Shown: positions 10,976 through 26,592 of the stretch, piece by piece
Numbering within the stretch: position 1 is the stretch's first letter
Layout of the letters: the number at the start of each line of letters is the position of its first letter
Translations under genes and position numbers: made by a program
Origin: an uncultured Ruminococcus sp.
GTDB lineage: Bacteria > Bacillota > Clostridia > Oscillospirales > Ruminococcaceae
DNA length: 64,000 bases
NCBI GenBank assembly: GCA_902780505.1
Contig: CACZFN010000002.1
Span: 124,001 to 188,000, forward strand
Reading direction: 5' to 3'
Notes under the pieces: model-generated
What the model saw: the letters and a program-made list of their open reading frames with translations, nothing else
Databases searched by the model: none
Told to the model about the DNA's origin: nothing

Positions 10976-13555
10976 CTATTCGTTTATCCTTATATCGTCC
11001 TTGCAGTTTATCACTTTGAGAATGCCGTTCTTACTGCCAAGGCCAAAGCCTTCCCTTGTCCTGAATTCAAGGATCAGTTCGGATTCTGAAACGGTGACAT
11101 TGCCGTCGCCATCACAGTCGCCGATGCCGGATATACTTGCACCCTCACAATAATAATCCATTGTGGTATGGCTTACATCTATACCGACATTGCCGCCTCT
11201 TGTTCCCAGGCAGTTGATATTCCTGCCGCGCAGTTTTGTTACCATCTTTCCGTTATTGAAGCTGATATAGCCTTCGCCGCCGCTTATTGAACCAACGCCG
11301 CAGATCGACATACCTGTAAGCGTTTCCGTAAGCGATATGTTTTCTATGGTTATATTTGTATTGCCCATATCAGAACCTACACCCACGCAGTTTGCAGATG
11401 ATATCTCGATCGTAACTGCACAGTCGCTGAGTGTTATATTGCTTGTACCCTCGTGTATGCCTACACCCACGCAGGCACCGCCCGAACAGTTTATCTGTGT
11501 ATTGCCCGAAAGTATGCGTATCGCCGTATTATCTTCGTTCATACCGCCGCCGATACCTACCGAGTTATCGCCGTTCGATTCGATGATAAGGTGCCCCGTG
11601 ATAAGAATATTTATATTGCCGGGACTCTGATGTCTGTCAGTACCGATAGCATAGGAACTTGCAAGCTCGGAAACTATCTTAAGCGAACCGTCGCCTGTCA
11701 GAGTCAGATCGGCAGTCTTAGGAACATAGATACCCTTTGACCTTAGTTCATTGCGGCCTTCAAGGTTGATAGTCACCTTGCTCTTATCGCCGAGTGCGAT
11801 TATAGGGTTATCCTTATCGGTCATAAACATAGCGCCGCGCAGGTTTATCCTTGTTTCAAGGCCGTCCTTTACAATAATGCCCATATTGCAGGCATTATGC
11901 CCGTCACCCTCGATAGTTACCTGTGGTGTTTCTATAAATATCACGGTATAATGATCTGATGTCAGTTTTATAAGGTCTACTGTTTCACAGTTCTTCGGGT
12001 GGTATATCTTATCAATATTTGCCGAATACTCAAGGTTTATCTTCAGTATTTCATCTCTGAGAGCATCAGAGATCTCATACAGCATAAACGGCTTCGGCTT
12101 TGATACATAAAACCCTTGTATAAGGTCAGAGCCAAGTCCTATCATAGTCTTTAGCTCGCTGTATGTTTCAACACCCTCTGCAAGTGCCTGATATCCGTTA
12201 TCGTGTACAAATTCGATTATAGACGAAACAAGCTTCTGCATTTTCAGGTTGTTTTCTATCCCTGCTATAAGCTGTCTGTCTATCTTTACATACTGCGGTG
12301 AGTAGCGCAGCAGATTTGATGTATTTGAATACCCCGTACCATAGTCGTCTATAGCAAGTTCCATATTAGCCTGCGCTATTCTGTTCTTGACTATTGCAAG
12401 GCCTTCATCACTTATTTCCGACTGCTCGGTAAGCTCTATCACGACCTTTTCAAGCAGTTCACCGTAATCCGCCACAAGTGTCGCCCAGTCGTCATCAGTG
12501 AGAATATGTGCCGATATTGAATTGACAAACAGTTTCTTTGATGAAAACTGCTGCTGATTTTCACTGATCAGCTTGAGGGCATTGAAGAAAGTCGCCTTTT
12601 CAATATCATAAAGCCTGTCATATTTCTCTGCTATATCAAGTATCTCAAGCGGGTACATTTCTATACCGCCGCCGCTTCGCATAAGTATTTCATATGCCAC
12701 TATCTCGCCTGTATGCGCCGAGATTATCGGCTGGAAATGGTAGCGGAACAGATTAGAATCAAGCAGTGTTGTAAACTGCTGCACACGTGCAAATTCATTT
12801 TTCTGGTCTTCATATCGCTCAACACTGTAGTTAAGTATCGTGCCCCTGCCCTTAGACTGTGCTTCAAACAGTGTGAACTGGGCAGTGTTCATTCGCTGCA
12901 TGGGCGAAGACAGTTCTGCCGAACAGCCCGCAGTAAAGGTGACACAAAAACCGGCACTGTTGTCAGGGACCGTCAGTTCATAACCCTCCACGATCCTGCG
13001 AAGATCGGTAAGATACTGCACCTCACCGCCGGAGAAGGCAGGAATATACAGCCAGAGCCTTCCGTTTTTAAGTGAGCATACCATAGCTTCCTTCGGAACA
13101 GACGTCATTATAACTGCGAGAAGTTCATAGATATCCCTGTCCGAAAGTGCCTTTTTCCCTTTTTTATCTTCAAGCTGCAAAAGCGCAAGAAGCGAAGGCG
13201 CGGTATTTTCCGTCATAGCGGTTATCAGCTGATTTACAGTACAAAGTGAAAGTGCCTCACCCTGCGGCTGCTTCTTTTCATAGATAAGCCCAAGCGCTGT
13301 AGCACTGTCGCTGTGAAGACTCCTGACTGCAAGGTGTGCATTGTCATCGCCCCTGATATGACTGATAAGCTTCAAAGCGCTTTCATACGACGGCTTGCCC
13401 TCAAAGCCGAGCATACGGTAGGCGTTCTTGTCAAGCTCGTAATCGTGCCTGTCTATAAAGAATGCATATCTGCCGACACTTTCAGCTATTTCCTCAAGTT
13501 CTTCCCATGCGAGCCCAAAATATTTTTTCCATAGTATCGAGTCTTTTCCAAACAT
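10976..13555 (-). CDS. EAL-domain c-di-GMP phosphodiesterase with degenerate GGDEF and C-terminal beta-helix-like region
   Basis: The 859-residue protein has three parts. Residues 1-250 include a region resembling a decayed GGDEF domain ('FSGGEVQYL' in place of GGDEF, ending 'AQFTLFEAQSKGRG'). Residues about 258-510 are an EAL domain: the EAL motif reads YEILMR, and the expected metal and catalytic residues are present (N in FVNSI, E in ELTEQ, DD in IDDYGTGYSN, K in VKIDRQ, E in LAEGVET, Q in IQGFYVSKP), so it should hydrolyse c-di-GMP. Residues about 540-859 are short repeated strands with motifs like GVGIHEGTSNITLSDC and SVGIGGGMNEDN, typical of a right-handed beta helix. There is no signal peptide or membrane segment. 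It leads a transcript with the PNPOx gene. Confidence 0.88.
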   Translation of the reverse strand: MFGKDSILWKKYFGLAWEELEEIAESVGRYAFFIDRHDYELDKNAYRMLGFEGKPSYESALKLISHIRGDDNAHLAVRSLHSDSATALGLIYEKKQPQGEALSLCTVNQLITAMTENTAPSLLALLQLEDKKGKKALSDRDIYELLAVIMTSVPKEAMVCSLKNGRLWLYIPAFSGGEVQYLTDLRRIVEGYELTVPDNSAGFCVTFTAGCSAELSSPMQRMNTAQFTLFEAQSKGRGTILNYSVERYEDQKNEFARVQQFTTLLDSNLFRYHFQPIISAHTGEIVAYEILMRSGGGIEMYPLEILDIAEKYDRLYDIEKATFFNALKLISENQQQFSSKKLFVNSISAHILTDDDWATLVADYGELLEKVVIELTEQSEISDEGLAIVKNRIAQANMELAIDDYGTGYSNTSNLLRYSPQYVKIDRQLIAGIENNLKMQKLVSSIIEFVHDNGYQALAEGVETYSELKTMIGLGSDLIQGFYVSKPKPFMLYEISDALRDEILKINLEYSANIDKIYHPKNCETVDLIKLTSDHYTVIFIETPQVTIEGDGHNACNMGIIVKDGLETRINLRGAMFMTDKDNPIIALGDKSKVTINLEGRNELRSKGIYVPKTADLTLTGDGSLKIVSELASSYAIGTDRHQSPGNINILITGHLIIESNGDNSVGIGGGMNEDNTAIRILSGNTQINCSGGACVGVGIHEGTSNITLSDCAVTIEISSANCVGVGSDMGNTNITIENISLTETLTGMSICGVGSISGGEGYISFNNGKMVTKLRGRNINCLGTRGGNVGIDVSHTTMDYYCEGASISGIGDCDGDGNVTVSESELILEFRTREGFGLGSKNGILKVINCKDDIRINE

Positions 13556-14805: not shown

Positions 14806-14845
14806 CTGCCGTCTTATGCAAATTGCAGGACGGCAGGCTTTTTTT
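14806..14845. terminator. Intrinsic terminator between YhaM and the ABC transporter operon
   Basis: CTGCCGTC (14806-14813) pairs with GACGGCAG (14829-14836), followed by a run of seven or more T on the plus strand. The minus-strand side has a TCAATTTTTG tail, so it may also end the ABC operon. Confidence 0.85.
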
Positions 14846-15482
14846 ACTTTATCATCTCAATAACCCCTTTATCCATCTCATGCACAGTTTCACACAGCAC
14901 CTCAATATCCTCTGCCGAGTGCGAGCAGATAAGTATCGTCTTGCCCTGCTCTTTGTAGGAAAGCAAGTATTCACGCATCTCCTTGACACCGTCCTTGTCA
15001 AGCCCGTTGAATGGCTCGTCAAGTATCAGTATTTTCGGGTTTTCCATTATCGCCTGCGCAAGTCCTAACCTTTGACGCATTCCAAGAGAATACTTGCGAA
15101 CGTGCCTGCGTAAATCGGGATCAAGCCCGACTTGTTTCATACTTTCTCTGACCTGTTCTTTGCCGATTTTATTCTTTAACCCTGCAAGGAGTTTCAGATT
15201 CTTGTATCCCGAGTAGTAAGGGATAAATCCGGGCGTTTCAATGATAATTCCCATATCATCGGGAAAGTCAACGTCCTTGCCGACACGCTTGCCGTCAACT
15301 GCTATTTCGCCGCTTGTGGGCTTTACAAAACCGCATATGCACTTCATAAGCATAGTTTTACCGCTGCCGTTTCTTCCGATAAGACCGTGAATTTTGCCTT
15401 CTTCAAAGGTAACGTTTATATGCTTTAGAATGTCGGTTTTTGTCAAAGTCAGGTTTACGTCATTTACTTCAATAATATTCAT
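14844..15482 (-). CDS. ABC transporter ATP-binding protein
   Basis: The 212-residue protein has Walker A GRNGSGKT (about 36-43), signature 'YSLGMRQRLGLAQAI' (about 131-145), Walker B 'ILILDEPFNGLDKDGV' and an H-loop 'ICSHSAED'. It is the cytoplasmic ATPase of an ABC-2 type transporter. It is the last gene of a four-gene minus-strand operon, nine bases after a permease gene and downstream of the PepSY-like membrane protein. The start uses a GAGGTGG site. Export of a lipid, peptide or antibiotic is typical for this class, but the substrate is unknown. Confidence 0.93.
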   Translation of the reverse strand: MNIIEVNDVNLTLTKTDILKHINVTFEEGKIHGLIGRNGSGKTMLMKCICGFVKPTSGEIAVDGKRVGKDVDFPDDMGIIIETPGFIPYYSGYKNLKLLAGLKNKIGKEQVRESMKQVGLDPDLRRHVRKYSLGMRQRLGLAQAIMENPKILILDEPFNGLDKDGVKEMREYLLSYKEQGKTILICSHSAEDIEVLCETVHEMDKGVIEMIK

Positions 15483-15491
15483 TTTGCCACC

Positions 15492-16367
15492 TCACATTGC
15501 TATCTCTGACACATTATCATAATTGAATTTCTTTATGGCTATCAGGCAGAATGCAGTCAGCCCGACGATCATAGTACAAAGATAAAAAATCGAAAACTCC
15601 ATAGTTACAACAGGCTGCCTAAAATACTTTGTGTAGTGCAGCCATATTATGCTGTTTGCCATCGGCATAGACCACATCAGGTTTGTTTTGATAGAGCAAA
15701 GCGCTGTGCCTATGGAAATAATAGCCGCACAAGCCACAAAGCCTGCGGTCTTTTTCTTGACGATTGAAAAAGACAAAAGTATCAGACCTAAGATAAGCAG
15801 ATAGGCAAAAACAAGTAGATAACTCCTTACCGCTGCACTGTATATCGAAAGTTGGTTGTATAAGTTTTCCGGCAAAAGCTGAACACCGAAATTACCTGCC
15901 TTGTCGGGAAACATTATCTTGTACTGCGTGGCAACCTTGCTCCAATCATCAGACCAATTACTGCGCCCGAGCATAGGAACAACAGCGCCCAAAAAGATAA
16001 CAGCAAGATATGATGCCGCCATAAAAACGAGCTTTATCATCTGCCCGACTATCCAGTTTAAACGCCCAACACGCATTATGTAAAATACGGTATTCGTATC
16101 TATCTTCGGGAAGTCTGCGATCAGAGTCAGAAAAACAAGCGGCAGTATCAGCATAATTGCGCCCGAATTTGCTATTGCAATAAACGGCTCTAAGGTGTTA
16201 AGCTGCTCGCCCATTTCTTCTGCATTTTTGAGAAGGGGCTCAATTGCAAAGCTGTAGATAAATATTAACAGCACAGCGAGGATTATCATTCGGGCATCAT
16301 TTACCCACTTGATATACTCCGTTTTTGCGGTGGTAAGGCATTGGCGTAAATTCAGTCGTCCGAACAT
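15492..16367 (-). CDS. ABC-2-type permease
   Basis: The 291-residue protein has about six hydrophobic segments, beginning with a cytoplasmic N-terminus and a first span near residues 30-48 ('MIILAVLLIFIYSFAI'). A frame three codons longer begins at a GTG (16376) inside the upstream gene, but AGAGGTG placed six to seven bases before the ATG at 16365-16367 supports the shorter start. It follows the sister permease with a single-base gap. The pair probably forms the membrane part of the transporter with the ATPase encoded next. Confidence 0.82.
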   Translation of the reverse strand: MFGRLNLRQCLTTAKTEYIKWVNDARMIILAVLLIFIYSFAIEPLLKNAEEMGEQLNTLEPFIAIANSGAIMLILPLVFLTLIADFPKIDTNTVFYIMRVGRLNWIVGQMIKLVFMAASYLAVIFLGAVVPMLGRSNWSDDWSKVATQYKIMFPDKAGNFGVQLLPENLYNQLSIYSAAVRSYLLVFAYLLILGLILLSFSIVKKKTAGFVACAAIISIGTALCSIKTNLMWSMPMANSIIWLHYTKYFRQPVVTMEFSIFYLCTMIVGLTAFCLIAIKKFNYDNVSEIAM

Positions 16368-16368
16368 A

Positions 16369-17235
16369 TCACACACCTCTATCCTTGCGAAGGTTCATTA
16401 TCAGCGAAAACAGCACTATCACACCAACAACAAGCACGCTGTTGAATATCACGATTCTCTGAGTGCTTGCGTTCCACTCGGTGATAAATGCAAGCTGACG
16501 GGCGCTGTCGGGCTGAAAGTCAAACAGCTTTTGCGCAAGCTCGTTATCCTCCGTTTCCCACGCTTTTAGGACAAGCTTATTTATTGCTGTATTCCAGATA
16601 TACACCATTAAAAACGGCACGCAGGTGATAAGGTACGGATTGCGTGAAAAAGAGCTGATTAGAAACGCAGGCAGGGTGGTAACTGCCCCGTAGATAAAGG
16701 CACTGAGCAGCATTTTAAGCACCTCGACTGTCTGACTGTCGGGGTGCATTTCACAGTAAAATTCATCAAGCTCGTAACTGTTTATATTCGGGAAAAATCC
16801 GTAGACCACAAGCCCATATAACGCATACCCGAGCATAGCCGCAAGCCCTCCGCCGATAAGCACTGAGAGGAACTTTGACAGGTAATAGCGCAGGCAGCCC
16901 GTGCGTGATATGGTAAAGCGCATAAGCCCGCTGTTGCGCTCGGCACAGAATGACACCATAAACGGGAACGCAACGATTATCGGCAGGAACATTGTGATAT
17001 ATCCGCCGAGGCCGTTTTGGAACACGTTTACCGAGGCAAATTGCGTATCACTTTCGATAAACTCACGCTTAAAAGAGAAGAACGATTCAAAGACCGAATA
17101 GCTTCGGTCAGTCGTCAGCTCGTGGTAGGTGGGGGCGGTAAAGCAGAGAACTGCTGTTAAAAGCACAGCGCCGAGAAAGCCGATGTTTATTATGGTTTTG
17201 TTCAGGTCTTGCCTAAGGGAATTAAGTAGTTTCAT
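16369..17235 (-). CDS. ABC-2-type permease
   Basis: The 288-residue protein has an N-terminal span at about 18-36, a long external loop, then a cluster of spans (about 95-115, 140-165, 180-210) and a last one near 260-280. 'MVSFCAERNSGLMRFTISRTGCLRYYLSKFLS' resembles the coupling-helix region of ABC-2 permeases such as ABC-2 family gliding or bacitracin-type exporters. Its start lies one base after the stop of the PepSY-like gene, so the four genes are tightly coupled. Confidence 0.82.
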   Translation of the reverse strand: MKLLNSLRQDLNKTIINIGFLGAVLLTAVLCFTAPTYHELTTDRSYSVFESFFSFKREFIESDTQFASVNVFQNGLGGYITMFLPIIVAFPFMVSFCAERNSGLMRFTISRTGCLRYYLSKFLSVLIGGGLAAMLGYALYGLVVYGFFPNINSYELDEFYCEMHPDSQTVEVLKMLLSAFIYGAVTTLPAFLISSFSRNPYLITCVPFLMVYIWNTAINKLVLKAWETEDNELAQKLFDFQPDSARQLAFITEWNASTQRIVIFNSVLVVGVIVLFSLIMNLRKDRGV

Positions 17236-17236
17236 T

Positions 17237-18394
17237 TTATTTTACCAATCCATAATGGTTTTCGTATATCATACTTTCGCCGCTGACAGCGTCTATATAA
17301 AGCTGCATTTTAGCAAAATGGTCCATACCAAAATTGTACTCATCATTATGTTTATATTCATCTATTACAAATACCCACATAGGCTTAAACACGGTCTTAT
17401 CAGGTTCCTGATTAGTTATGCAGACATATTTTAATTCACAGCCTGTAACTTTGTATGCAGTATATGGTGCTATAGCCTCTGATGCAAGCTTTTCTGCATC
17501 ACTTAGTGGTATGATTTCCTTGGCAGGTGTCTTGCTCAGTATTTTAAAATAACAGGGGTTTGATACTATACTTAGCCTATCCTTTTCATATATTTCAATA
17601 TTCAAAGCACTTCCCCTGAAAAAATCATTATCTATATCAGGGTTCCAAACATCATCTACCAAAACTCCATCAATTAAATGGCTGTATTTAAGCAGATATG
17701 CATAGCTGTTTCTTTGAGGAAAATATACGACACCTATATCCGTCAGAACAGGCTTTTCATATAAAAACTGCGAAATATCTTCAGCTACCTTTTTATTTGC
17801 AAATTCCACTGCGTCTTTCAGTGCATACTCCTGACCGTTGATATCATAGACTTCATTTTCATAATCATCATCGGGCTTATATCTCTTTATTACCTTCGGT
17901 CTTATTCTTTCGTTTTCCTCCTCGTCTGATGAAAAGGGTTCGGAAATGTCTATACTGTTATCAATTTTTTGGGCATTAAAAGTATCATTATAGTAATAAT
18001 GGATCAGAGTATCGTTCTTTTCATATCTGCCATACGCTTCAACACCATTATCCTTGTCATAAAGTATCTCTCCGTTTTGAATATCCACTCCATACACCTT
18101 TTTTCCGAAATCGGCAACTTTTTTCTTTAGCTCGTCAGGAGTAAGTGTATCGTCCTCACCTGTCCAGCCGATCTCAATTTCTTCATACACAGTATCAAAA
18201 TCGGTGTTTTTTACCTCGCAGTCAAATTTAAGATTATCGTATTCCCCGAATTTATAATTCTTTAATTCGGCTGTTATTTCCTCTGCATTACGAACAACTA
18301 TTTCTTTATCCTTATTATTTAGCAGCAGATATCCTACAATAACAATAGCCATAATAATAAAGATAATAAATACAATTTTTACTGCTTTTTTCAT
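17237..18394 (-). CDS. Membrane-anchored PepSY-like protein, first gene of the ABC operon
   Basis: The 385-residue product has an N-terminal transmembrane anchor (about 5-25, 'VFIIFIIMAIVIVGYLLL') with no lipobox, then a long acidic extracytoplasmic region. Its C-terminus has a helix with spaced alanines ('SDAEKLASEAIAPY') followed by 'KPMWVFVID...QLYIDAVSGE', the pattern of PepSY domains. The same ending is found in the five lipoproteins upstream (18578-23954), so it looks like a membrane-anchored member of that set. It is one base upstream of a permease gene. It may present a ligand to, or regulate, the ABC transporter. A YycH/YycI-like role is an alternative. No family name is certain. Confidence 0.7.
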   Translation of the reverse strand: MKKAVKIVFIIFIIMAIVIVGYLLLNNKDKEIVVRNAEEITAELKNYKFGEYDNLKFDCEVKNTDFDTVYEEIEIGWTGEDDTLTPDELKKKVADFGKKVYGVDIQNGEILYDKDNGVEAYGRYEKNDTLIHYYYNDTFNAQKIDNSIDISEPFSSDEEENERIRPKVIKRYKPDDDYENEVYDINGQEYALKDAVEFANKKVAEDISQFLYEKPVLTDIGVVYFPQRNSYAYLLKYSHLIDGVLVDDVWNPDIDNDFFRGSALNIEIYEKDRLSIVSNPCYFKILSKTPAKEIIPLSDAEKLASEAIAPYTAYKVTGCELKYVCITNQEPDKTVFKPMWVFVIDEYKHNDEYNFGMDHFAKMQLYIDAVSGESMIYENHYGLVK

Positions 18395-18441
18395 TTTATT
18401 CCGTTCCTTCTCTCGCTTTGGTTTAAGGGGGATTATTTAAC

Positions 18442-18510
18442 TCTCACATTTCAAAGTATAAATAACACCCTTCCAATACATTCAACCTGAAAAACAGGTA
18501 AAATGTGAGA
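18442..18510. repeat. Nested inverted repeat upstream of the ABC operon
   Basis: TCTCACATTT (18442-18451) pairs with AAATGTGAGA (18501-18510), and inside it ACCTG-aaaaa-CAGGT (18485-18499) forms a small hairpin. It lies in the 183-bp gap between the lipoprotein array and the PepSY-like membrane gene, in the probable leader of the latter. No T-run follows, so it is more likely a leader structure or operator than a terminator. A poor -10 (TATAAT, about 18516-18521 on the minus strand) lies next to it without a clear -35. Confidence 0.55.
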
Positions 18511-18577
18511 AGTGTATTATATTTTTGTATGCTTTCACAAATTAAGTCGTTCGGTTTTGTTGACTGTTCACAAATAA

Positions 18578-19696
18578 TCAGGGATACTCAACAGGCAAGT
18601 CGCACTCCCCCATAAACTCGCTGTCGCCAAAATCATAAAAGACATAGGGGATATTCATGACCTTTCCGCTTACAGCGTCAACACTTATTATGCCGTTTAC
18701 GCCTTTGCTGTCGGTGTAGTATATATTCCACTGAGGGGTGTATTTAAAGCTGTTGTCACCTGCACGTTCATAAGGGGTATATTCAAGCTGTGCATATTTT
18801 GCTGTTACAGTTTTAAGCATTGCACCGTATTTTTCCTCCGCTTTGTTTACGGCAGTGTCAAAGTCCATGATGTCACTCACGCCTGTTTCTTTTTTGTCAC
18901 AGACAAGTGCGCCGCGTATATCTATCCCCGATATTTCATCTGTAGTATGAAAAGATACGTGTGTCACCGGGTATTTATCCTGTGATGCACTGCTGCAAAA
19001 CCTGTCGTTGTTAATATATGAACTTCTGAGCAAAAAGCCGTCATATTTAAGAGCATATGCAATATCCACATACAAAAGCCTGCCTGTATCCGAAACTATC
19101 CTTTTACAGTATACAGGTACCGCTTCAAGGTCTGAACCGATAAGTGACAAAAGGCTCTCAACAGCAGCCCCGCCTCTTGATGCAAGGTCACTAAGTTTTG
19201 CACTCACGCCTTCAAGTATTATTTCCGTCCTTTCAAACGAGGGAAGGTAGAGAAACTCATCATAACCTGTTTCGGTGTCGGAATACATAGCAGTATACTC
19301 ACCCTTGTATAAAGACATCGCCCCCGTTGAAGAAAGCTGTGCAAAATATTCCCTTTCCTCACAAAACCAGTTAGCTGCTTTTACGGCGATCGTTTTATCA
19401 TGGTCATATATATCTTCACCGCTGTAATCGAGGTCGTCATTGAATACGCCCCTGCCCCATATATCCGGGCCGAAGAAAAATTCCACAGCACTTTGCAAAG
19501 CATAAGTATCAACATTTGCCACAGCCGCTTCATACTCAAATGCACCCGAAACAGTCGGGATAAAAAAATCATCAGCGTATTTAAGCCCTGTCTGTTCACA
19601 AACGCCTGTGTTTTTATCAGAACTTACTTCTTCAGAACAGGCAGGCAGTGAAAAAGCGATCAGCAGTGCAGAGAATACGCAAAAAAGTCTTTTCAT
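18578..19696 (-). CDS. PepSY-like lipoprotein, array member 5
   Basis: From the ATG at 19694-19696 the product is 372 residues with a lipoprotein signal ending LPAC. A frame seven codons longer exists (ATG at 19717), but GGGTGAT sits correctly before the shorter start. The body is extracytoplasmic. The last 100 residues contain 'KAEEKYGAMLK', 'KYAQLEYTPYERAGDN', 'PQWNIYYTDSKG' and 'IISVDAVSGKV', which fit a PepSY pattern. It is most similar by eye to array member 4: both carry 'EFFFG.D/E.W/LWGRG'-type motifs after the signal and near-identical C-terminal blocks, so they are a recent duplication. Function is unknown. Confidence 0.8.
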   Translation of the reverse strand: MKRLFCVFSALLIAFSLPACSEEVSSDKNTGVCEQTGLKYADDFFIPTVSGAFEYEAAVANVDTYALQSAVEFFFGPDIWGRGVFNDDLDYSGEDIYDHDKTIAVKAANWFCEEREYFAQLSSTGAMSLYKGEYTAMYSDTETGYDEFLYLPSFERTEIILEGVSAKLSDLASRGGAAVESLLSLIGSDLEAVPVYCKRIVSDTGRLLYVDIAYALKYDGFLLRSSYINNDRFCSSASQDKYPVTHVSFHTTDEISGIDIRGALVCDKKETGVSDIMDFDTAVNKAEEKYGAMLKTVTAKYAQLEYTPYERAGDNSFKYTPQWNIYYTDSKGVNGIISVDAVSGKVMNIPYVFYDFGDSEFMGECDLPVEYP

Positions 19697-19716
19697 TTGT
19701 ATCACCCAAATAATCA

Positions 19717-20811
19717 TCAGTTATCAGCAGGCAGGTCTACCGTTACATCAGGCCACTCATCTCCGAAGTCAGAATGTCCAAGCACTATATTCTTTATATC
19801 CCCGCTTACTGCATCAACGCTTATTATGCCGTTTACTTCCTTACTGTCGGTGTAGTACAGGTTCCATACAGGGGTGTATTTAAAGCTGTTGTCGCCCGTA
19901 CGCTCAGTCGGGGTGTATTCAAGCTGTGCATATTTAAGCGTGAGCGCTTTTACAAACGATTCGTACTTTTCTTCGGCTTTTCTTATAGCGCCTTCGCAGT
20001 CGATAATATCAAGCTTGCTGCCCTGTGTGATATTTGTCACAAGTGCACCGCGCTGCCATATGCCCATAATATCATCGACTGTGTAGAAATAAACGTGCGT
20101 TACGGGAAATCTGTTCATTCCGGGCCCATGATCGCCTGCAAACCTGTCGTTGTACACAAATGAATCCCGGAAAACGCAGTTGTCTGTTCTGAGGTTATAA
20201 GAAATATCAATATAAAGAAGATCACCCTGAGCTGACACAAACATCTTGCAAAACAGCGGCACTGCCTTTAAGTCAGAACCCATAAGCGGCAAAACGCCCT
20301 CTATAAATGACTTGCCTTTTTCGGCAAGGTCTGCAAGCCTTGCACTGTTTCCTTTAAGTGTAACATCTGTATGGGAAAATGCAGGGAAATAAACTATTCT
20401 GTCAAGTATCTGCTCAACATCATTGTACATTTCGGAATATTCCCCTTTATAAAGCTGAAGTTCGCCGTCGCCGTAAAAAACGGAATTATACAGCTTTTCC
20501 TTATAAAACCAGTTTCCGCCCGCAAGTGATAATTCAGCATCCTGCTGTGTAAGGTCAGTATACTCCCCCCTGCCCCACAGTCCTTCACCAAAGAAGTATT
20601 CGTCTATCGTCTGTAGGGCTTCAACATCAACACTTGCCACATCTGCTGTATACTCACAGGCAGGCACATCAGGCGGCAGAGTAAAATCATCATCAAGCTT
20701 GAAATCCGTTTCCATGACCTTCGGCAGGTCTGTTTCTGAGCCCTCACCCTCCGAGCAGGCAGGCAGTACGATCATCACAAAAGCACACAAAAAACAAAAC
20801 ACCTTTTTCAT
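19717..20811 (-). CDS. PepSY-like lipoprotein, array member 4
   Basis: The 364-residue protein has a signal peptide ending in the lipobox LPAC (cysteine about residue 19). It shares with member 5 'YFFGEGLWGRGEY', the block 'GSDLKAVPLFCKMFVS', and the C-terminal 'KYAQLEYTPTERTGDN' ... 'PVWNLYYTDSKEVNG' ... 'ISVDAVSGDI'. It would be tethered to the outer face of the membrane. A GAGGTG site precedes the ATG. The gap to the next member downstream is 20 bp. No enzymatic motif is visible, so a ligand-binding or inhibitory PepSY-type role is only inferred. Confidence 0.8.
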   Translation of the reverse strand: MKKVFCFLCAFVMIVLPACSEGEGSETDLPKVMETDFKLDDDFTLPPDVPACEYTADVASVDVEALQTIDEYFFGEGLWGRGEYTDLTQQDAELSLAGGNWFYKEKLYNSVFYGDGELQLYKGEYSEMYNDVEQILDRIVYFPAFSHTDVTLKGNSARLADLAEKGKSFIEGVLPLMGSDLKAVPLFCKMFVSAQGDLLYIDISYNLRTDNCVFRDSFVYNDRFAGDHGPGMNRFPVTHVYFYTVDDIMGIWQRGALVTNITQGSKLDIIDCEGAIRKAEEKYESFVKALTLKYAQLEYTPTERTGDNSFKYTPVWNLYYTDSKEVNGIISVDAVSGDIKNIVLGHSDFGDEWPDVTVDLPADN

Positions 20812-20839
20812 AAAAACACCTCAGTCATTTTATCTTATG

Positions 20840-21859
20840 TCAGGTCATTCCGGGTTCGTTCTCTATTAACCCCACTTCACCCGAAACCGCATTTACCGAT
20901 ATCCTCACTTCGCCGCTTTTGCCGATCCCGTAAAAAGCCCAGAAGGGTGTGAGCGTTAAGAGTTCAAGGTCCCCCTCTATGGGAATATATTCAAGCCGGG
21001 AATACAAAAGCGTTATATCACGCGTTTTTGTACCAAGCTTTTTGCCCGCCGCTTCAAGGGCATCAGAACACGCAATGACAGCTTTTTCTTCCTTTTCCTT
21101 TATACTTGTCATCAAAGGCCCCGCCTGAAGCAATGTAAACCTCCCATTGCCTGCGGCGCTGACTCTTATCTGCTGACGGGGAACAGTCATATCGTCACCA
21201 TAGTCAACAATCGTCGAGCCGCCTATAACGATATCCTCTGCTTTTTGCGAAAAGTAAAAGGTAACAGACACAGCCCTTTCGTCCTGCGTTTTTGAAATGC
21301 TTGCTTTAAGCGGCGTAAACTGAACATCAGTGCCCATATTGTTTATACACCCCTGTACAAAGTGTAAAGTTTCGTCACAAAGCTCGCTCAGTGTATAAAG
21401 CTCACCGTCAAGAACAACATCTGTGCTTAAAAAAGCACTTTCGTATATATAATCACCCTGTGATATCTCGTCATCACCCGCAAGTTCATTTTCAAGCCCC
21501 ATATCATAAAAATAAAAGCTGTTTATTTCTACGCCCACATCTCTGTTCTGGTCATGGCTGAGCCACATATAAAAACCGATATCCTCCGCTTCCGAGTCAT
21601 AATCCCCCCGCAAATATGCCCCGTCACCGAAAACATGGTCAACAAACGGTCCAAGCTGATCTTTTTTGAACCTCACAGCTTCGCAGGTGTATTCATAGCC
21701 TTTTACGACAGGCGGGATATAAAAATCCTCCCCGTATTCAAAGCCGCATTCATCATTTTCAGGCAAAGGCAAAGACATACTGCTCTGCCCTTCTGAAGAA
21801 CACGAAGAAAAAAATAGCAGTGATGAGATCAGTGCCGCAAGCACGGTGTGTTTTTTCAT
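20840..21859 (-). CDS. PepSY-like lipoprotein, array member 3
   Basis: The 339-residue protein has a lipoprotein signal ending FSSC. It keeps the array pattern: 'DFYIPPVVKGYEYTCEAVRFKKDQLG', 'VFGDGAYLRGDYDSEAEDIG', a middle block around 'INNMGTDVQFTPLKAS', and a C-terminus with 'LYSRLEYIPIEG', 'TPFWAFYGIGKSG' and 'ISVNAVSGEVG'. It is more divergent than members 4 and 5. An AGGAG site lies five bases before the ATG, and the upstream gene ends nine bases away. Confidence 0.78.
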   Translation of the reverse strand: MKKHTVLAALISSLLFFSSCSSEGQSSMSLPLPENDECGFEYGEDFYIPPVVKGYEYTCEAVRFKKDQLGPFVDHVFGDGAYLRGDYDSEAEDIGFYMWLSHDQNRDVGVEINSFYFYDMGLENELAGDDEISQGDYIYESAFLSTDVVLDGELYTLSELCDETLHFVQGCINNMGTDVQFTPLKASISKTQDERAVSVTFYFSQKAEDIVIGGSTIVDYGDDMTVPRQQIRVSAAGNGRFTLLQAGPLMTSIKEKEEKAVIACSDALEAAGKKLGTKTRDITLLYSRLEYIPIEGDLELLTLTPFWAFYGIGKSGEVRISVNAVSGEVGLIENEPGMT

Positions 21860-21868
21860 ATTTTTCTC

Positions 21869-22879
21869 CTATGTGTTTATATTCTGTACAAGCGTCTGCC
21901 CTGTAGCCGCATCAATGCAGATAAGGATATCCTCCCCCTTGTCAGTAGCGGCATATGCCGCCCAGTAGGGATAGAACCTGTAAGTATCCCCGTTTTTCTC
22001 ACGCGGGGTGTATTCAAGTGAAATATGCTTTAGTGTTATATGCGAAGCCGAGGAATAAAGTTCACCGGATGCCGATTTAAGTGCATCTTCACAGCTTAGT
22101 ATATCGGCGTCACCGCAGGCAGTCAGATCCCTGTAAAGCCCGCCGCCCGAACAGGTGACGCTTGGTATTTTATCTATGTCAAGCACAGTCGCTTCAAAGG
22201 CCGGACATGGTGCAGTTTCATCATCACCGTCTGTCCTTACACTGCGCAGTCTGCCAAAGCCTGTATCTGCCGCAAATGTAAAGTCAGCACCTTTTTTTCC
22301 GCTGTCACCAAGTGTAAGTATACGCGCACTGACAGGGGTTATCCCTATATCACTTCCAAGCAGTTCAAGCATATCGCTTATCTGCGCGCCTGCCGCCTGT
22401 GAAAGCTCGGAAAGAAAATATGTACCCGACGGTGTATCAAGTTCTGTAGTATCAAAGCTGTCGGCATAAACGGTTTCGCCCGCGGTAATGCTTTCATCAT
22501 CGGCTATGCCGTCATAGATATCGCCATTTGTATAATAGAATGTGCCGTTTTTATTAAGCGTGATATTATGCTCTCCGTCATATGTGTACCAGCTTGTATA
22601 TAAATCATTTTGCTCGGTGCAGGTCTGGTCATAGCCCTTGCCTCGATATGCGCCTGAGCCGAAAACAAGGTCGGTAAGTTCTCCAAGCTTTGAAAAATCA
22701 GCCTCAAACCCCTTCACCTCGATCACCTGCCCCGCAGGTGTGGGCGGGATGACAAGCCCGTCAGAATACTCAAACATCACCCGCCCCGCCGCCGTGTTGC
22801 CGCGGCTTTCAGGTACAGCTGATGACTTGCAGGAAGAAAGCACAAGCATTGAAATAATAATACAAATAATCCTTTTCAT
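21869..22879 (-). CDS. PepSY-like lipoprotein, array member 2
   Basis: From the ATG at 22877-22879 the product is 336 residues with lipobox LSSC. A frame seven codons longer overlaps the upstream gene, but GAGGTGA is placed six bases before the shorter start. Shared features are 'GLVIPPTPAGQVIEVKGFEADFSKLGELTDLVFGSGAYRG' (seen in pieces across the array) and the C-terminal 'KHISLEYTPREKNG', 'YPYWAAYAATDKG', 'ICIDAATGQT'. External location and PepSY-like fold are inferred; no function is known. Confidence 0.78.
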   Translation of the reverse strand: MKRIICIIISMLVLSSCKSSAVPESRGNTAAGRVMFEYSDGLVIPPTPAGQVIEVKGFEADFSKLGELTDLVFGSGAYRGKGYDQTCTEQNDLYTSWYTYDGEHNITLNKNGTFYYTNGDIYDGIADDESITAGETVYADSFDTTELDTPSGTYFLSELSQAAGAQISDMLELLGSDIGITPVSARILTLGDSGKKGADFTFAADTGFGRLRSVRTDGDDETAPCPAFEATVLDIDKIPSVTCSGGGLYRDLTACGDADILSCEDALKSASGELYSSASHITLKHISLEYTPREKNGDTYRFYPYWAAYAATDKGEDILICIDAATGQTLVQNINT

Positions 22880-22889
22880 ACTTATCACC

Positions 22890-23954
22890 TCAATCGGCAT
22901 AAACGGGGGCTTTGAAGATCTCCCCGGTCTGTGCGTTCACATACATAACACCGCAGTTGTCTTCATCATCTCTGTAATAGACCGCCCAGAAAGGCGATAG
23001 TACCTCCTGCCCGCCGTCACGGGAAGTCGGGGTGTATTCAAGCTCGGCATATTCAAGTGTCATATGCCCGGCATAGCTGCCCGCTTTTTTATCAAGCAGT
23101 TCAAGCATATCATCAAGTCCTTTGATCTCAAGCCTTCTGCCTTTCTTTATATCTTTTATAAGTCCGTTCCATACAGTGCAGGCAGCCATCTGTATCTTGC
23201 CGTCATCAAAAAGTGATACAATGTAAAACGGGCATATCCCGTATGGATCATCAGGCATTATGTTCTTAGCGGGTATATCATCAAGCTCGTCGCAGAGGTT
23301 ACATCTTGTCGGCTGACCGTCTGCTACTGTACTGAAAAATATTTCGGCACATTCTGTATCATCACTGTGCCACTTAAACTTTTTGGCATATACAGCACGC
23401 ACATCAAGCTCGGGGCTTATGCTGCGCACTATCGGCAAAAGCGCCTGATATGCCTGTGCCTCGGCTTCCCTGACCGAAATATCACCGCTTGGGAAGCTTA
23501 TCATCTGCCTGTCAAATTCGGGTGCAAAGACTATACCGCTTGGCGTGTTCCAGTCACCTTCACCGTGTGCTTCATAAAAGCTGCTGTCAGACACCAGAAA
23601 AGAGCCGTTTTTTCCTAACTGGGCTTGCTTCTCCTCAGCAAAGTTATCCCATTCCATTATCGGTAAGAATTCTCCGCTTTCATCAGGCAGGTCAATCTTC
23701 ACACCGCGGGCGTATTCACCCTCACCGAAATAGATGTCCACTATCTCTCTGAGGTCATTTTCCGAAGCAGCTGTAAAAGAACAGGTGTATTCGTAAACAT
23801 CATTTACAGGCGGCAGGAAAAACCCCTCACCGTAAACAAAGCTGTTTTCCGTTTTGAGAGCATCTAATGAAGCCCCCGAAGAACCTTTCCCGTTTTCACA
23901 TGAGCAAAGCAGCAATGCTGCGATAAGCGGGAATAATACTACCGATTTTTTCAT
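22890..23954 (-). CDS. PepSY-like lipoprotein, array member 1
   Basis: The 354-residue protein begins the lipoprotein operon. It has a signal peptide ending LCSC, then 'GFFLPPVNDVYEYTCSF', 'IVDIYFGEGEYARG', and a C-terminus with 'YAELEYTPTSRDGG', 'SPFWAVYYRDDEDN' and 'MYVNAQTGEIF'. Each conserved block has a counterpart in the other four lipoproteins. It is expressed from a sigma-A-like promoter at 23978-24008 behind an AAGGAAGG site. It lies directly downstream of the sigma-factor fusion gene, which has its own terminator. Confidence 0.8.
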   Translation of the reverse strand: MKKSVVLFPLIAALLLCSCENGKGSSGASLDALKTENSFVYGEGFFLPPVNDVYEYTCSFTAASENDLREIVDIYFGEGEYARGVKIDLPDESGEFLPIMEWDNFAEEKQAQLGKNGSFLVSDSSFYEAHGEGDWNTPSGIVFAPEFDRQMISFPSGDISVREAEAQAYQALLPIVRSISPELDVRAVYAKKFKWHSDDTECAEIFFSTVADGQPTRCNLCDELDDIPAKNIMPDDPYGICPFYIVSLFDDGKIQMAACTVWNGLIKDIKKGRRLEIKGLDDMLELLDKKAGSYAGHMTLEYAELEYTPTSRDGGQEVLSPFWAVYYRDDEDNCGVMYVNAQTGEIFKAPVYAD

Positions 23955-23977
23955 AATATCGCCTTCCTTTCGGGATA

Positions 23978-24008
23978 ATTATATAATCTTCCCTAAGGTA
24001 AGTGTCAA
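23978..24008 (-). promoter_or_regulatory. Promoter of the lipoprotein array
   Basis: Minus strand TTGACA (24003-24008) with either TATATA (23980-23985, 17-bp spacer) or TATAAT (23978-23983, 19-bp spacer). The start site would leave a short leader before member 1. Confidence 0.7.
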
Positions 24009-24165
24009 TAGCTTGCGTTTATTTTCGGCAGATAACACAAAAAATGCCCCGTGTTTTTGTTTCCATAAATAAAGACGACCGACACGTGCCGAATGTGTCA
24101 GCGCAGATCATTATTTGTACACTTAAACAAATCATCGGTTTGATTTTTGTAAATCTGCACAAACA

Positions 24166-24192
24166 AAAAAGCGGAGATGCACTCCGCTTTTT
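24166..24192 (-). terminator. Intrinsic terminator of the sigma-fusion gene
   Basis: GCGGAG (24171-24176) pairs with CTCCGC (24182-24187) with extra A/T pairs on both flanks, immediately after the stop codon at 24194-24196. The A-run on the plus strand is the minus-strand T-tail. Confidence 0.88.
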
Positions 24193-24193
24193 A

Positions 24194-26323
24194 TCAGAAT
24201 ATCCCGAACTCGCTTGATGCAAGCCATACAAGTGCGCTGCACTCGCCGTCTGTAAGGTCATCATAGGCTTTTATATATTCTTCAAGCTGCGCCGAATCTG
24301 TCATATCCTTGCAGTTATCAAGAATATCCTGCCAATGCCTGCCTACAAAATCATTGTCCTCCCTGATTATATACGCTTCACTGACGTTGTATATCTGACC
24401 GGGGTAGCTTTCGGCAACAGAGCCGTCCCATGTTATATAGATATAATCTCCGGGGCTTATGCTGTCATCTTTAGCAAGTATATCTTCACCTACAGCAAAC
24501 CCTGCAAGTTCGTAGCCGTCGCTGAAAGCATAGAAATAACCGCGTTCTTTATCATAATCTGCTATCTCAAAGCCGTGTGTGATAAGCGTGGGCACTCCCG
24601 CAAGCTGTATTATCTCGGAAGCGTTTGCCTTATCAACTGTCATAACACTTCCGCCGTCCAATGATAACTTGATACCCTCGCCGTCTTGCTCTCGCATAAA
24701 GGTTATATTTGTGACCTTGACCTGTTTCCCGCATACGGTTATATCCGCAGGGGCTTTGAAAACGACCTCGCCAAAAAGCCCGCTTTGCCTGCACCTTTCG
24801 GCTTCATCATTTGAAAACGCCCTGTTTTCGGCAGTTGAGAGTATATCATAATGCTTGTTGTCAAGTGCCTGATAAATAAATTTCAAAAGTGTATCACTGT
24901 CATAAAGCCTGACACTTCTGCCGTCAAGCATGAATTCAAGCTCGTATTCGGGGTTATTGTCACGGTAGGGCGGATCATACCACTTTTTGAAAACCTCTGT
25001 CTGTTCAATAAGCTGCTGGACGCTCCACGCATTGCCGTCTGATGTCATTCCGAGAAGCCCTTGGTTTTTTCCCCTGTCCTCTATCGGGAAGCACACCCTT
25101 TTCCCCGACTGTTCGGGATAGATACAGAAATTGTAATACTTTTCCTCTAACACCGCAGGTGTGACTTCACTCTGCTGATACTGCTTTGTGGTGTCTGCAA
25201 GTGCAATGAGCTCCTTTGCCTTGACAAGTGTCTGTGTGTCCACCCTGCCGACAAATCCGATATCTTCGATCATGACAAGGTCATCATCACCGCTTTTATA
25301 CATTTCAAGGAAGCTGCCGCCGTATGGGTGGGGTGTATAGTAATTATGAAAAACCGCCGTAAACGCCGAACCGTCCTCTGTAATAAAAAACGCTTCTATG
25401 CCGTCATAATCGCCCTGCTCCCCGAGGGCTGCCGTAGCAGAATATATCACTTTGTCTGTATCAAACAAAGGCTCTGTCATAACAGGGGTGTCGGGATCAT
25501 CAGGGGTGTCTGGCGTGCTGCTGTCTATGATCAGCACAGAGTTTGTGTCTTTCTCACCGCCGAAGCCTTCACGGGTGTTTGCAAAATGCATAGCAGCCGG
25601 CACGCCGATAACGACAGCACCCGCAGCAAGTCCCGCTGCGATCTTCAGCCCGAACGCCGTTTTCACAGCGCCGCCCTTTGCAAGTGCCGCTGCCGAGGTA
25701 TCGTCAAAGCTAAGACCTACCACTGCCCCAAGCGGCACGGCACAAAGTGTCTTGCCGCCCGTGAAGCTTTCTATCTCACGCCCTATCTTTTTCCTTGCTT
25801 TGTAAAGGCGCGCTTTGACTGCACTTTCGCTTATGCCGAGCGTTTTTGCCGTTTCACTTACAGACATTTCTTCGTAATAATAAAGTATCACGGCGCTTCG
25901 CATTTTAGTATCAAGGGCTTCTATAGTCTGCTTCAGCCTTGCACGAAGCTCACGGTCTTCGGCGTATTCTTCCGGCAGCATAACGGGGTTTTGCAGCTGA
26001 TACTTATCCATTTCTTTCAGGGGCATATCATCAATATCTGTATACCGTGTATCACTTCGCTGCTTCAAAGTGTCCATACACTTTGTATAAGCTATTCTGT
26101 AAACCCATGCACTGAATGCTGACTTGTCCTTCAGTGCGGGCAGCTTTTCAAAGGCGGTGACAAAGGTTTCCTGCAAAATATCCTGTGCATCGCTTTCACT
26201 GCCGACGTTTTTCAGTATAAAGAAATATATCCTCGGTCTGAGCTCGGTATAAAGCTTCTCAAATGCCTCCTTATCACCCTCTGCCGCATTTTGTGCAAGT
26301 GATGTGCAAGTATTCTTATCCAT
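24194..26323 (-). CDS. ECF sigma factor fused to a transmembrane segment and a large external domain
   Basis: The 709-residue protein starts as an ECF sigma factor: region 2 at about 20-90 ('DAQDILQETFVTAFEKLP...SAFSAWVYRIAYTKCMDTLKQR') and region 4 at about 130-185 ('RSAVILYYYEEMSVSETAKTLGISESAVKARLYKARKKIG'). A hydrophobic span follows at about 224-246 ('KIAAGLAAGAVVIGVPAAM'), then a linker rich in D, T and P and about 430 residues that should lie outside the cell. Sigma domain, membrane span and sensor-like domain are thus in one chain. GGAGGAG lies only about one to three bases before the ATG, so initiation may depend on coupling with the small frame at 26316-26426. Its location beside the lipoprotein array suggests a functional link. 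Confidence 0.85.
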   Translation of the reverse strand: MDKNTCTSLAQNAAEGDKEAFEKLYTELRPRIYFFILKNVGSESDAQDILQETFVTAFEKLPALKDKSAFSAWVYRIAYTKCMDTLKQRSDTRYTDIDDMPLKEMDKYQLQNPVMLPEEYAEDRELRARLKQTIEALDTKMRSAVILYYYEEMSVSETAKTLGISESAVKARLYKARKKIGREIESFTGGKTLCAVPLGAVVGLSFDDTSAAALAKGGAVKTAFGLKIAAGLAAGAVVIGVPAAMHFANTREGFGGEKDTNSVLIIDSSTPDTPDDPDTPVMTEPLFDTDKVIYSATAALGEQGDYDGIEAFFITEDGSAFTAVFHNYYTPHPYGGSFLEMYKSGDDDLVMIEDIGFVGRVDTQTLVKAKELIALADTTKQYQQSEVTPAVLEEKYYNFCIYPEQSGKRVCFPIEDRGKNQGLLGMTSDGNAWSVQQLIEQTEVFKKWYDPPYRDNNPEYELEFMLDGRSVRLYDSDTLLKFIYQALDNKHYDILSTAENRAFSNDEAERCRQSGLFGEVVFKAPADITVCGKQVKVTNITFMREQDGEGIKLSLDGGSVMTVDKANASEIIQLAGVPTLITHGFEIADYDKERGYFYAFSDGYELAGFAVGEDILAKDDSISPGDYIYITWDGSVAESYPGQIYNVSEAYIIREDNDFVGRHWQDILDNCKDMTDSAQLEEYIKAYDDLTDGECSALVWLASSEFGIF

Positions 26324-26426
26324 TCTCCTCCGCCCCTTTCTTTGTGCAGATACTATCAGCTGCTATTTCGGTTTCAAGTATCATTTCGCTGATTATATCC
26401 CTTATAAGTACACTCAGCTCGGTCAT
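26316..26426 (-). CDS. Small 36-residue frame overlapping the sigma-fusion start
   Basis: ATG at 26424-26426, with GGTGA eight bases upstream, opens a 36-codon frame that ends in TAA at 26316-26318, overlapping the sigma-fusion start by eight bases. The peptide is helical and acidic in the middle (DIISEMILETEIAAD). The same frame stays open upstream for about 30 codons without a standard start. It may be a leader peptide coupling translation to the sigma gene. Evidence is start, site and overlap only. Confidence 0.4.
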   Translation of the reverse strand: MTELSVLIRDIISEMILETEIAADSICTKKGAEENG

Positions 26427-26563
26427 AAGAGCTTCACCGTCCCCCTGTGTGTTCTGTTCTCTCCTTTTGTCTGTTCGCTTATTAGACGGTGAACAGGCTC
26501 TGACGGTTACTTTCAGCGCTTATTTTTGTATCACTGCACAAAAACATACACCCGCTTTTGTTA

Positions 26564-26592
26564 ATTATAACATAAGCGGATACACTTGTAAA
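26564..26592 (-). promoter_or_regulatory. Sigma-A promoter of the sigma-fusion gene
   Basis: Minus strand TTTACA (26587-26592), 17-bp spacer, TATAAT (26564-26569) with an extended TG. The leader to the sigma gene is about 230 nt and holds the small frame at 26316-26426. Confidence 0.72.

Follow-up and report, generated by a model that had tools for sequence, protein, structure and literature searches.

In the genome of an uncultured Ruminococcus sp. (GenBank assembly GCA_902780505.1), a 64,000-nucleotide stretch of contig CACZFN010000002.1 (positions 124,001 to 188,000, hereafter the window) carries a cluster of ten genes that encode a sigma factor fusion with a membrane segment (sig), five tandem lipoproteins (L1-L5), a membrane-anchored relative of these (M), two permease-like proteins (P1 and P2) and an ATP-binding cassette (ABC) ATPase (A). 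We propose that the cluster belongs to an envelope-stress or peptide-defence regulon controlled by an extracytoplasmic function (ECF) sigma factor, in which an ABC-2 exporter has YycI-like proteins as accessory subunits, multiplied at this locus; we hold this reading with confidence and doubt in equal measure. Contigs such as C5, C25 and C51 belong to the same genome as the window, G-numbers denote other genomes, and L followed by three digits denotes a DNA locus, as distinct from the window genes L1-L5.

The lipoprotein family and its predicted fold

All ten genes were confirmed as open reading frames (ORFs) on the minus strand when the ORFs of the window were checked, and the layout given by the original prediction, an array between a four-gene ABC operon and a 709-residue sigma fusion, was borne out:

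26316..26426, minus strand: 36-codon ORF that runs into the start of the sigma gene; other sigma fusions carry a conserved small ORF at this site
24194..26323, minus strand: sig, sigma fusion of 709 amino acids (aa); ECF sigma factor, transmembrane (TM) segment at residues 223-241, C-terminal part of ~465 residues presumed to lie outside
24166..24192, minus strand: terminator-like hairpin with a T run, directly after the sigma gene
22890..23954, minus strand: L1, family lipoprotein, 354 aa
21869..22900, minus strand: L2, family lipoprotein, 343 aa
20840..21859, minus strand: L3, family lipoprotein, 339 aa; model with YycH/YycI/YpeB fold
19717..20811, minus strand: L4, family lipoprotein, 364 aa
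18578..19717, minus strand: L5, family lipoprotein, 379 aa; closest to L4
17237..18394, minus strand: M, distant relative of L1-L5 with a membrane anchor, 385 aa
16369..17235, minus strand: P1, ABC-2 permease-like; ABC2_membrane_3 at E 7e-6, under cut-off
15492..16376, minus strand: P2, second, different multi-TM permease-like protein; no family match
14844..15482, minus strand: A, ABC ATPase; nearest NCBIfam galliderm_ABC, under cut-off

The genes L1-L5 overlap or almost touch, 183 bp separate L5 from M, and P1, P2 and A come after M without large gaps. Given the terminator-like hairpin behind sig, transcription probably starts anew before L1.

Judged by sequence comparison, L1-L5 are true paralogues and M is a distant relative over its full length, in agreement with the similarity that had been claimed for five tandem lipoproteins and one anchored relative. 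Mutual BLASTP E values within L1-L5 ranged from 4e-16 (L1-L3) to 2e-115 (L4-L5), and a Cys stands at a lipobox-like site in all five (N-termini judged by eye). Pairwise BLASTP of M against the lipoproteins was marginal (best E 0.003, to L3); a 17-member lipoprotein profile matched it at E 1.8e-5 across ~200 residues, and hhalign aligned it over the full length at 99.2% and E 5.7e-19. The control pair of lipoprotein and DUF4367 reached 0.6%, and the DUF4367 anti-sigma protein was therefore rejected as a relative of the lipoproteins. The C-terminal block that the family had been said to have in common, with a P-x-W strand and a V/I-D/N-A-x-(S/T)-G turn, was found as P-x-W and DA-x-(S/T)-G. Members 4 and 5, described earlier as a fresh duplicate, are indeed the closest pair, but they are not fresh because they are only 48.3% identical (all other pairs of L1-L5, 21.6-25.3%); in their DNA one 134-bp block is 84% identical. 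In a 21-row tree L4 and L5 grouped (99/99) with single genes of relatives and one G003 gene, while L1-L3 stayed unresolved; those single genes adjoin a homoserine-dehydrogenase-like gene, a neighbour identified by reading the sequence. The tree and the identities suggest that the array consists of old lineages brought together plus one later duplication. A search for plasmid-borne copies of L3 found none.

An AlphaFold model of L3 matched YycH, YycI and YpeB, in a VIA-align structural listing that covers only the chains ranked highest by Foldseek; the predicted fold is of the PepSY type and is the one common to YycH and YycI. At the level of sequence, the PepSY hidden Markov model (HMM; PF03413) gave no match in the whole genome, L1-L5 and M included. 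The check on C-terminal parts that the original prediction had proposed stayed under the cut-off as well: one of 20 fragments reached E 0.042, while an unrelated family reached 0.013. PepSY is thus correct as a predicted fold and not as an HMM match. No Pfam or NCBIfam model claims L1-L5 or M. The YycI HMM matched neither M nor L1-L5; among relatives it matched 2 of 13 M-like proteins (best E 0.0021) and 2 of 20 C-terminal fragments (best E 0.15). Searches with the lipoproteins, M, the M-like set, the cassette lipoproteins and P2 gave no convincing sequence link to solved structures.

The composite promoter

Inspection of the three longer intergenic stretches revealed an 18-nt element, TTTGT-N8-ACAAA, upstream of sig, L1 and M. 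It forms part of a composite layout in which the element, written TTTGTGCA-N4-TACAAA, is followed by an ECF-like -35 and, 36 nt after the element, by CGTCT. Composite promoters were scored as matches out of 19 specified bases:

26484..26542, minus strand: composite promoter of the sigma fusion; TTTGTGCA-N4-TACAAA, GTAACC, CGTCT; 19 of 19
24146..24163, minus strand: extra 18-nt element TTTGT-N8-ACAAA upstream of L1
24073..24131, minus strand: composite promoter of L1; 18-nt element, GACACA, CGTCTTTATT; 17 of 19
18483..18541, minus strand: degenerate version of the composite promoter, before M; TCACA keeps its spacing from the element, but the -10 differs from CGTCT; 15 of 19

Within the window, TTTGTGNANNNNTACAAA with at most one mismatch occurred 4 times against 0.12 expected, each time in the cluster. 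The pattern TTTGTNNANNNNTACAAA occurred 14 times in the genome of the window against 2 for the reversed pattern, 54 times against 0 in the six relatives of the same genus, and 8 times against 6 in four genomes of other genera, where 7 of the 8 lay in G008. When 75 sites were aligned, CGTCT stood at exactly +36 in 8 of them and elsewhere once. Between element and CGTCT, ~16 nt ahead of the latter, lies a TGNMAC-like -35, as is usual for ECF promoters.

The genus set for these counts comprised seven genomes, that of the window and the six relatives, and held 49 composites with up to three mismatches against 7 for the reversed control. Among the ten hits with no or one mismatch, six head lipoprotein units and one the sigma fusion; the other three, in G005, precede a gene that looks permease-like by eye and comes immediately after P1-P2-A. 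Ten of the 12 lipoprotein units of the genus score at least 16; the two low scorers are G006:C48 (11; by eye the same layout shifted by one base) and G001:C182 (11). Ranking the 52 ORFs of the window by their upstream regions placed sig (19), L1 (17) and M (15) at the top, with all others at 13 or less. Across 303 upstream regions of the genus loci, 17 score at least 16 and the other 286 at most 15. The 17 belong to 8 lipoprotein genes, 3 sigma fusions, 2 small ECF genes and 4 genes of ABC type (an ATPase, a permease identified by similarity and two recognised by eye), and 5 of them lie in loci fetched for having the motif. The 18-nt element was also observed before unrelated genes at L075, L077, L090, L108, L119, L129, L137 and other sites, among them a groEL-like gene and a transporter-like gene, the latter inside a TetR-type-operator-like stretch (both by eye).

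Recurring units and sigma fusions in relatives

A profile of M-like proteins found matches in 3 of the 291 genomes searched in the class, which all belong to the same family, and P2 was found in 9 of 197 genomes of the order, the window's own included; the other eight come from two genera of the same family. Nine P2 loci were read out of 11 listed matches outside the genome of the window. In 7 of these 9, from two other genera, an M-like or lipoprotein gene directly precedes P1-P2-A, and in the remaining two no P1 could be identified. At the head of one of the seven, L234, stand a gene for a small ECF sigma factor and one for a DUF4367 protein. Genome G005 holds three copies of P1-P2-A (L056, L145 and L146), each preceded by lipoproteins of the same superfamily and two of them with a small ECF sigma gene and a DUF4367-type protein ahead (Pfam-checked in L056); at L145 an apparent cut-short copy of that sigma gene lies beside transposase-like genes (by eye). 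On the gene order of the seven loci and the G005 copies, the conserved unit is an M-like protein or lipoprotein together with P1-P2-A, and an ECF sigma gene at its head recurs.

The lipoproteins themselves were found with a five-row profile at E 1e-8 or better in 7 of 100 genomes, namely all seven of the genus that were searched and none of the 93 others. A sixth family member in the genome of the window lies on contig C25, where it heads a second row of five lipoprotein-like genes (L011:5114-10983) and carries an 18-of-19 composite promoter. Two further genes of that row join the family weakly (hhalign 97.7%) and two others have no clear relation to it; the matching place in a relative (L032) holds a single gene.

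In sig, sigma-70 regions r2 and r4 exceed the Pfam cut-offs and one hydrophobic segment was found, at residues 223-241. The chain thus combines r2 and r4 without r3, a TM segment and a putative outer part, and no zinc finger or other Pfam domain was found in its extension. We infer from this plan that sig is an ECF sigma factor tethered by its own TM segment. At L058 in the same genome and at L054, L059 and L061 in relatives, lipoprotein-like and ABC genes come after this type of sigma factor, all on one strand; the lipoproteins at L054, L058 and L059 are candidate members of the L1-L5 family (hhalign 47.7%). Four genes in L055, L056, L060 and L062 encode sigma r2/r4 and FtsX, both over the Pfam cut-off, in one chain of 1117-1142 aa, and a fifth from another genus (G270) is 41% identical end to end. 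Overall this sigma-FtsX set (L055:12318-15671, L056:3051-6455, L060:9936-13364, L062:5945-9373 and L253:1924-5382) comprises five genes of 1117-1152 aa from three genomes and two genera, with an ABC ATPase gene next to or overlapping each. On contig C5 of the window's genome the permease part is unfused and has a 17-of-19 composite promoter. This genome gave five sigma matches at E 1e-25, and G001 and G004 (81% and 58% complete) gave none.

Several observations were made on these sigma genes in passing. The closest relatives of sig beyond the sigma domain (33-39% identity; L063:1011-4409 and L064:7475-10186) stand before a very large surface-like protein with no lipoproteins, and the L064 copy has an in-frame stop. 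At L057:1024-3093, on the 3.5-kb contig C51 of the window's genome, a sigma domain continues in frame into an ABC ATPase domain whose beginning is missing (Pfam ABC_tran matched from profile position 34), either a fusion by deletion between repeated cassettes or an assembly error. A conserved small protein of ~46-51 aa (pattern like DELI...EQ..RIY.RVF) is encoded just before, and overlapping, many sigma-fusion starts. It was matched at L055, L056, L057, L058, L059, L060, L062, L253 and L054 and more weakly at L061, L244 and L249, the new hits being L054 (E 9e-12), L061 (0.007) and L249 and L244 (0.015-0.02); it may be a leader peptide or small regulator. The 36-codon ORF of the window gave no match to this small-ORF profile.

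The nearest NCBIfam model of A is galliderm_ABC, of a lantibiotic-protection subfamily (score 175, cut-off 310). The operon also resembles LanFEG with LanI in its layout: a single ATPase, two permeases that differ from each other, and a protein at the outer face, which in LanFEG/LanI is anchored. It is on these two likenesses that the peptide-defence reading is founded. Anti-phage defence was rejected as a candidate: PADLOC, run on L1, L3, L4, M, P1, P2, the sigma part and the ATPase, returned a weak helix-turn-helix match for the sigma part, ATPase matches, and none for L1, L3, L4, M, P1 or P2. Elsewhere in the window, positions 10976-13555 encode an 859-aa protein that by eye combines an EAL-type phosphodiesterase part with a long beta-helix-like repeat part.

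Proposed regulon, rival readings and known systems

The genes, their homology, the predicted fold of L3, the promoter layout held in common and the recurrence of units were computed; from them we infer tethering, proteolytic release, the pairing of sigma factor and promoter, the fold and partnership of M, and a role in peptide defence. An external signal on the sig ectodomain would free the sigma part, probably by regulated proteolysis, and the free sigma factor would fire the composite promoters (18-nt element, TGNMAC-like -35, CGTCT -10) of its own gene, of L1-L5 and, more weakly, of M-P1-P2-A. Outside the membrane, M and the lipoproteins would adopt the YycI/YycH/YpeB fold of tandem PepSY type. 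M would serve the two-permease ABC-2 exporter P1-P2-A as its constant accessory subunit. The lipoproteins would be free, diversified counterparts of M: they would capture or sense a compound active on the envelope, most likely an antimicrobial peptide, and assist the exporter in clearing it.

A number of results weigh against this regulon. In the six relatives the close lipoprotein homologues are single genes or one pair at unlinked sites, with no sigma fusion or P1-P2-A beside them in the stretches read, so that the array is not a conserved cluster, and a fixed genus-wide cluster of lipoproteins, sigma fusion and ABC genes was rejected. The comparison of related genomes suggested with the original prediction thus showed no conserved array. 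Its view of the lipoproteins as sensors or effectors tied to the sigma fusion and the exporter is partly supported: the tie to sigma persists in another form, as the composite promoter that they have in common, and the M-P1-P2-A unit recurs. Only 4 of the 15 sigma-fusion genes of the genus score at least 16 (that of the window, L057 and one each in L058 and L059), two others scoring 14 and nine 11-13, and the M genes and small ECF genes inside the G005 and G006 cassettes score 10-13. Nine genes scored in M operons of other genera lacked the composite promoter. The exact composite was found in 12 stretches of the genome collection, before three lipoprotein genes (G002/G004), the ECF sigma gene L189 and eight others, which include apparent chance hits. 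Alternative promoters were seen before L1 (TTGACA-N19-TATAAT, ~24008-23978, by eye) and before sig (sigma-70-like, 26564-26592). The 18-nt element alone, differently spaced, stands before genes without relation to the cluster and may be bound by a wider regulator. P1 and P2 match no NCBIfam model at E 1 and A stays under its cut-off, so that no lantibiotic-immunity family model is reached. Lastly, a small ECF factor, which may be the usual reader of composite promoters, is present in all six relatives, and the genome of the window has only a 25%-identical hit; this swap of small factor for fusions suggests in turn that the fusions serve the composite promoters here.

The likeness to YycH and YycI equally permits a regulatory role (PMC7355866), and it is possible, though doubtful, that the lipoproteins and M act as YycH/YycI do on the kinase WalK, binding the ectodomain or TM segment of the sigma fusion (or exporter) and setting its activity, with feedback arising from their sigma-type promoters. 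The fold predicted for L3, the YycI-like plan of M and the promoter common with the sigma gene would fit such regulators, but M-like genes of other genera stand with P1-P2-A without a sigma gene in the stretch read (L229, L232, L236, L237) and most close lipoprotein homologues of the genus lie far from any sigma fusion. That duplicated surface lipoproteins merely came to lie beside an unrelated sigma fusion and ABC operon, with the element as a general regulator site, we consider improbable. Unlinked single genes in relatives, the element at other spacings before genes such as the groEL-like one, and the 11 sigma-fusion genes without the composite would fit chance, whereas element and CGTCT at fixed spacing single out three unit heads among the window's ORFs, and every genus upstream scoring at least 16 belongs to a lipoprotein, sigma or ABC-type gene. 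The lipoproteins could also resemble PepSY propeptides and YpeB in their role, inhibiting peptidases or acting as chaperones for secreted enzymes, with the exporter a separate matter; the cluster ORFs include no protease gene and the constant partner of M-like proteins is the ABC operon, which makes this very improbable.

Returning to the proposed regulon, a wider and rather unlikely extension of it would be envelope sensing without a kinase, in which ABC transporters and ECF sigma factors are coupled with no intermediary, by tethering through an ectodomain here and covalently through FtsX-type permeases in relatives, and lipoproteins of YycI/YycH fold, expressed from promoters of the same type, are exchangeable sensor subunits on the outer face. 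If so, the state of transporter or ligand would be read straight into transcription, and lipoprotein diversity would widen what is sensed. Ruminococci live among antimicrobial peptides, and little was found in the literature on how they sense envelope attack, beyond a general review of ECF factors and a study of polysaccharide loci. Each part of the locus is of a known kind; the combination of a YycI-fold lipoprotein family, an ECF composite promoter and sigma-transporter wiring was not found described in a literature search that was thin on subscription journals. Through this locus the predicted YycI/PepSY fold is carried over to the proposed ECF-sigma regulon, and the promoter defined for it can be tested directly.

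Among known systems, LanFEG/LanI has the same gene plan as M-P1-P2-A, with galliderm_ABC nearest to A and no NCBIfam model matching the permeases. Uncharacterised EUBREC_2869 of Eubacterium rectale (5coz) is also among the closest known proteins, with no sequence match to the family found. YpeB and the WalK accessory proteins YycH and YycI have a fold like that predicted for L3, and the plan given for YycH/YycI in PMC7355866, a short N-terminus, one TM segment and a large outer part, is that of M. The window family differs from them in that L1-L5 are lipoproteins, in being linked with an ECF sigma fusion and with an ABC-2 operon, in a sequence similarity under any cut-off, and in a cluster without a WalKR-type kinase (no kinase or response regulator among its ten genes). 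For sig, the likeness is to ECF48, ECF52/SCO4117, ECF53 and ECF243/IutY, in which sigma r2/r4 likewise continue, within a single chain, into a TM segment and an extension on the outer side; according to PMC8999054, proteolytic release was shown for IutY and is expected for ECF48, ECF52 and ECF53. Among the non-canonical ECF groups tabulated in the same source is ECF262, for which an example from Ruminococcus albus is given, and the fused sigma factors of this genus may therefore already be classified. Unlike ECF48, ECF52, ECF53 and IutY, relatives of the window carry the sigma factor fused to an FtsX permease, and whether a transporter can switch a sigma factor could there be asked in one protein.

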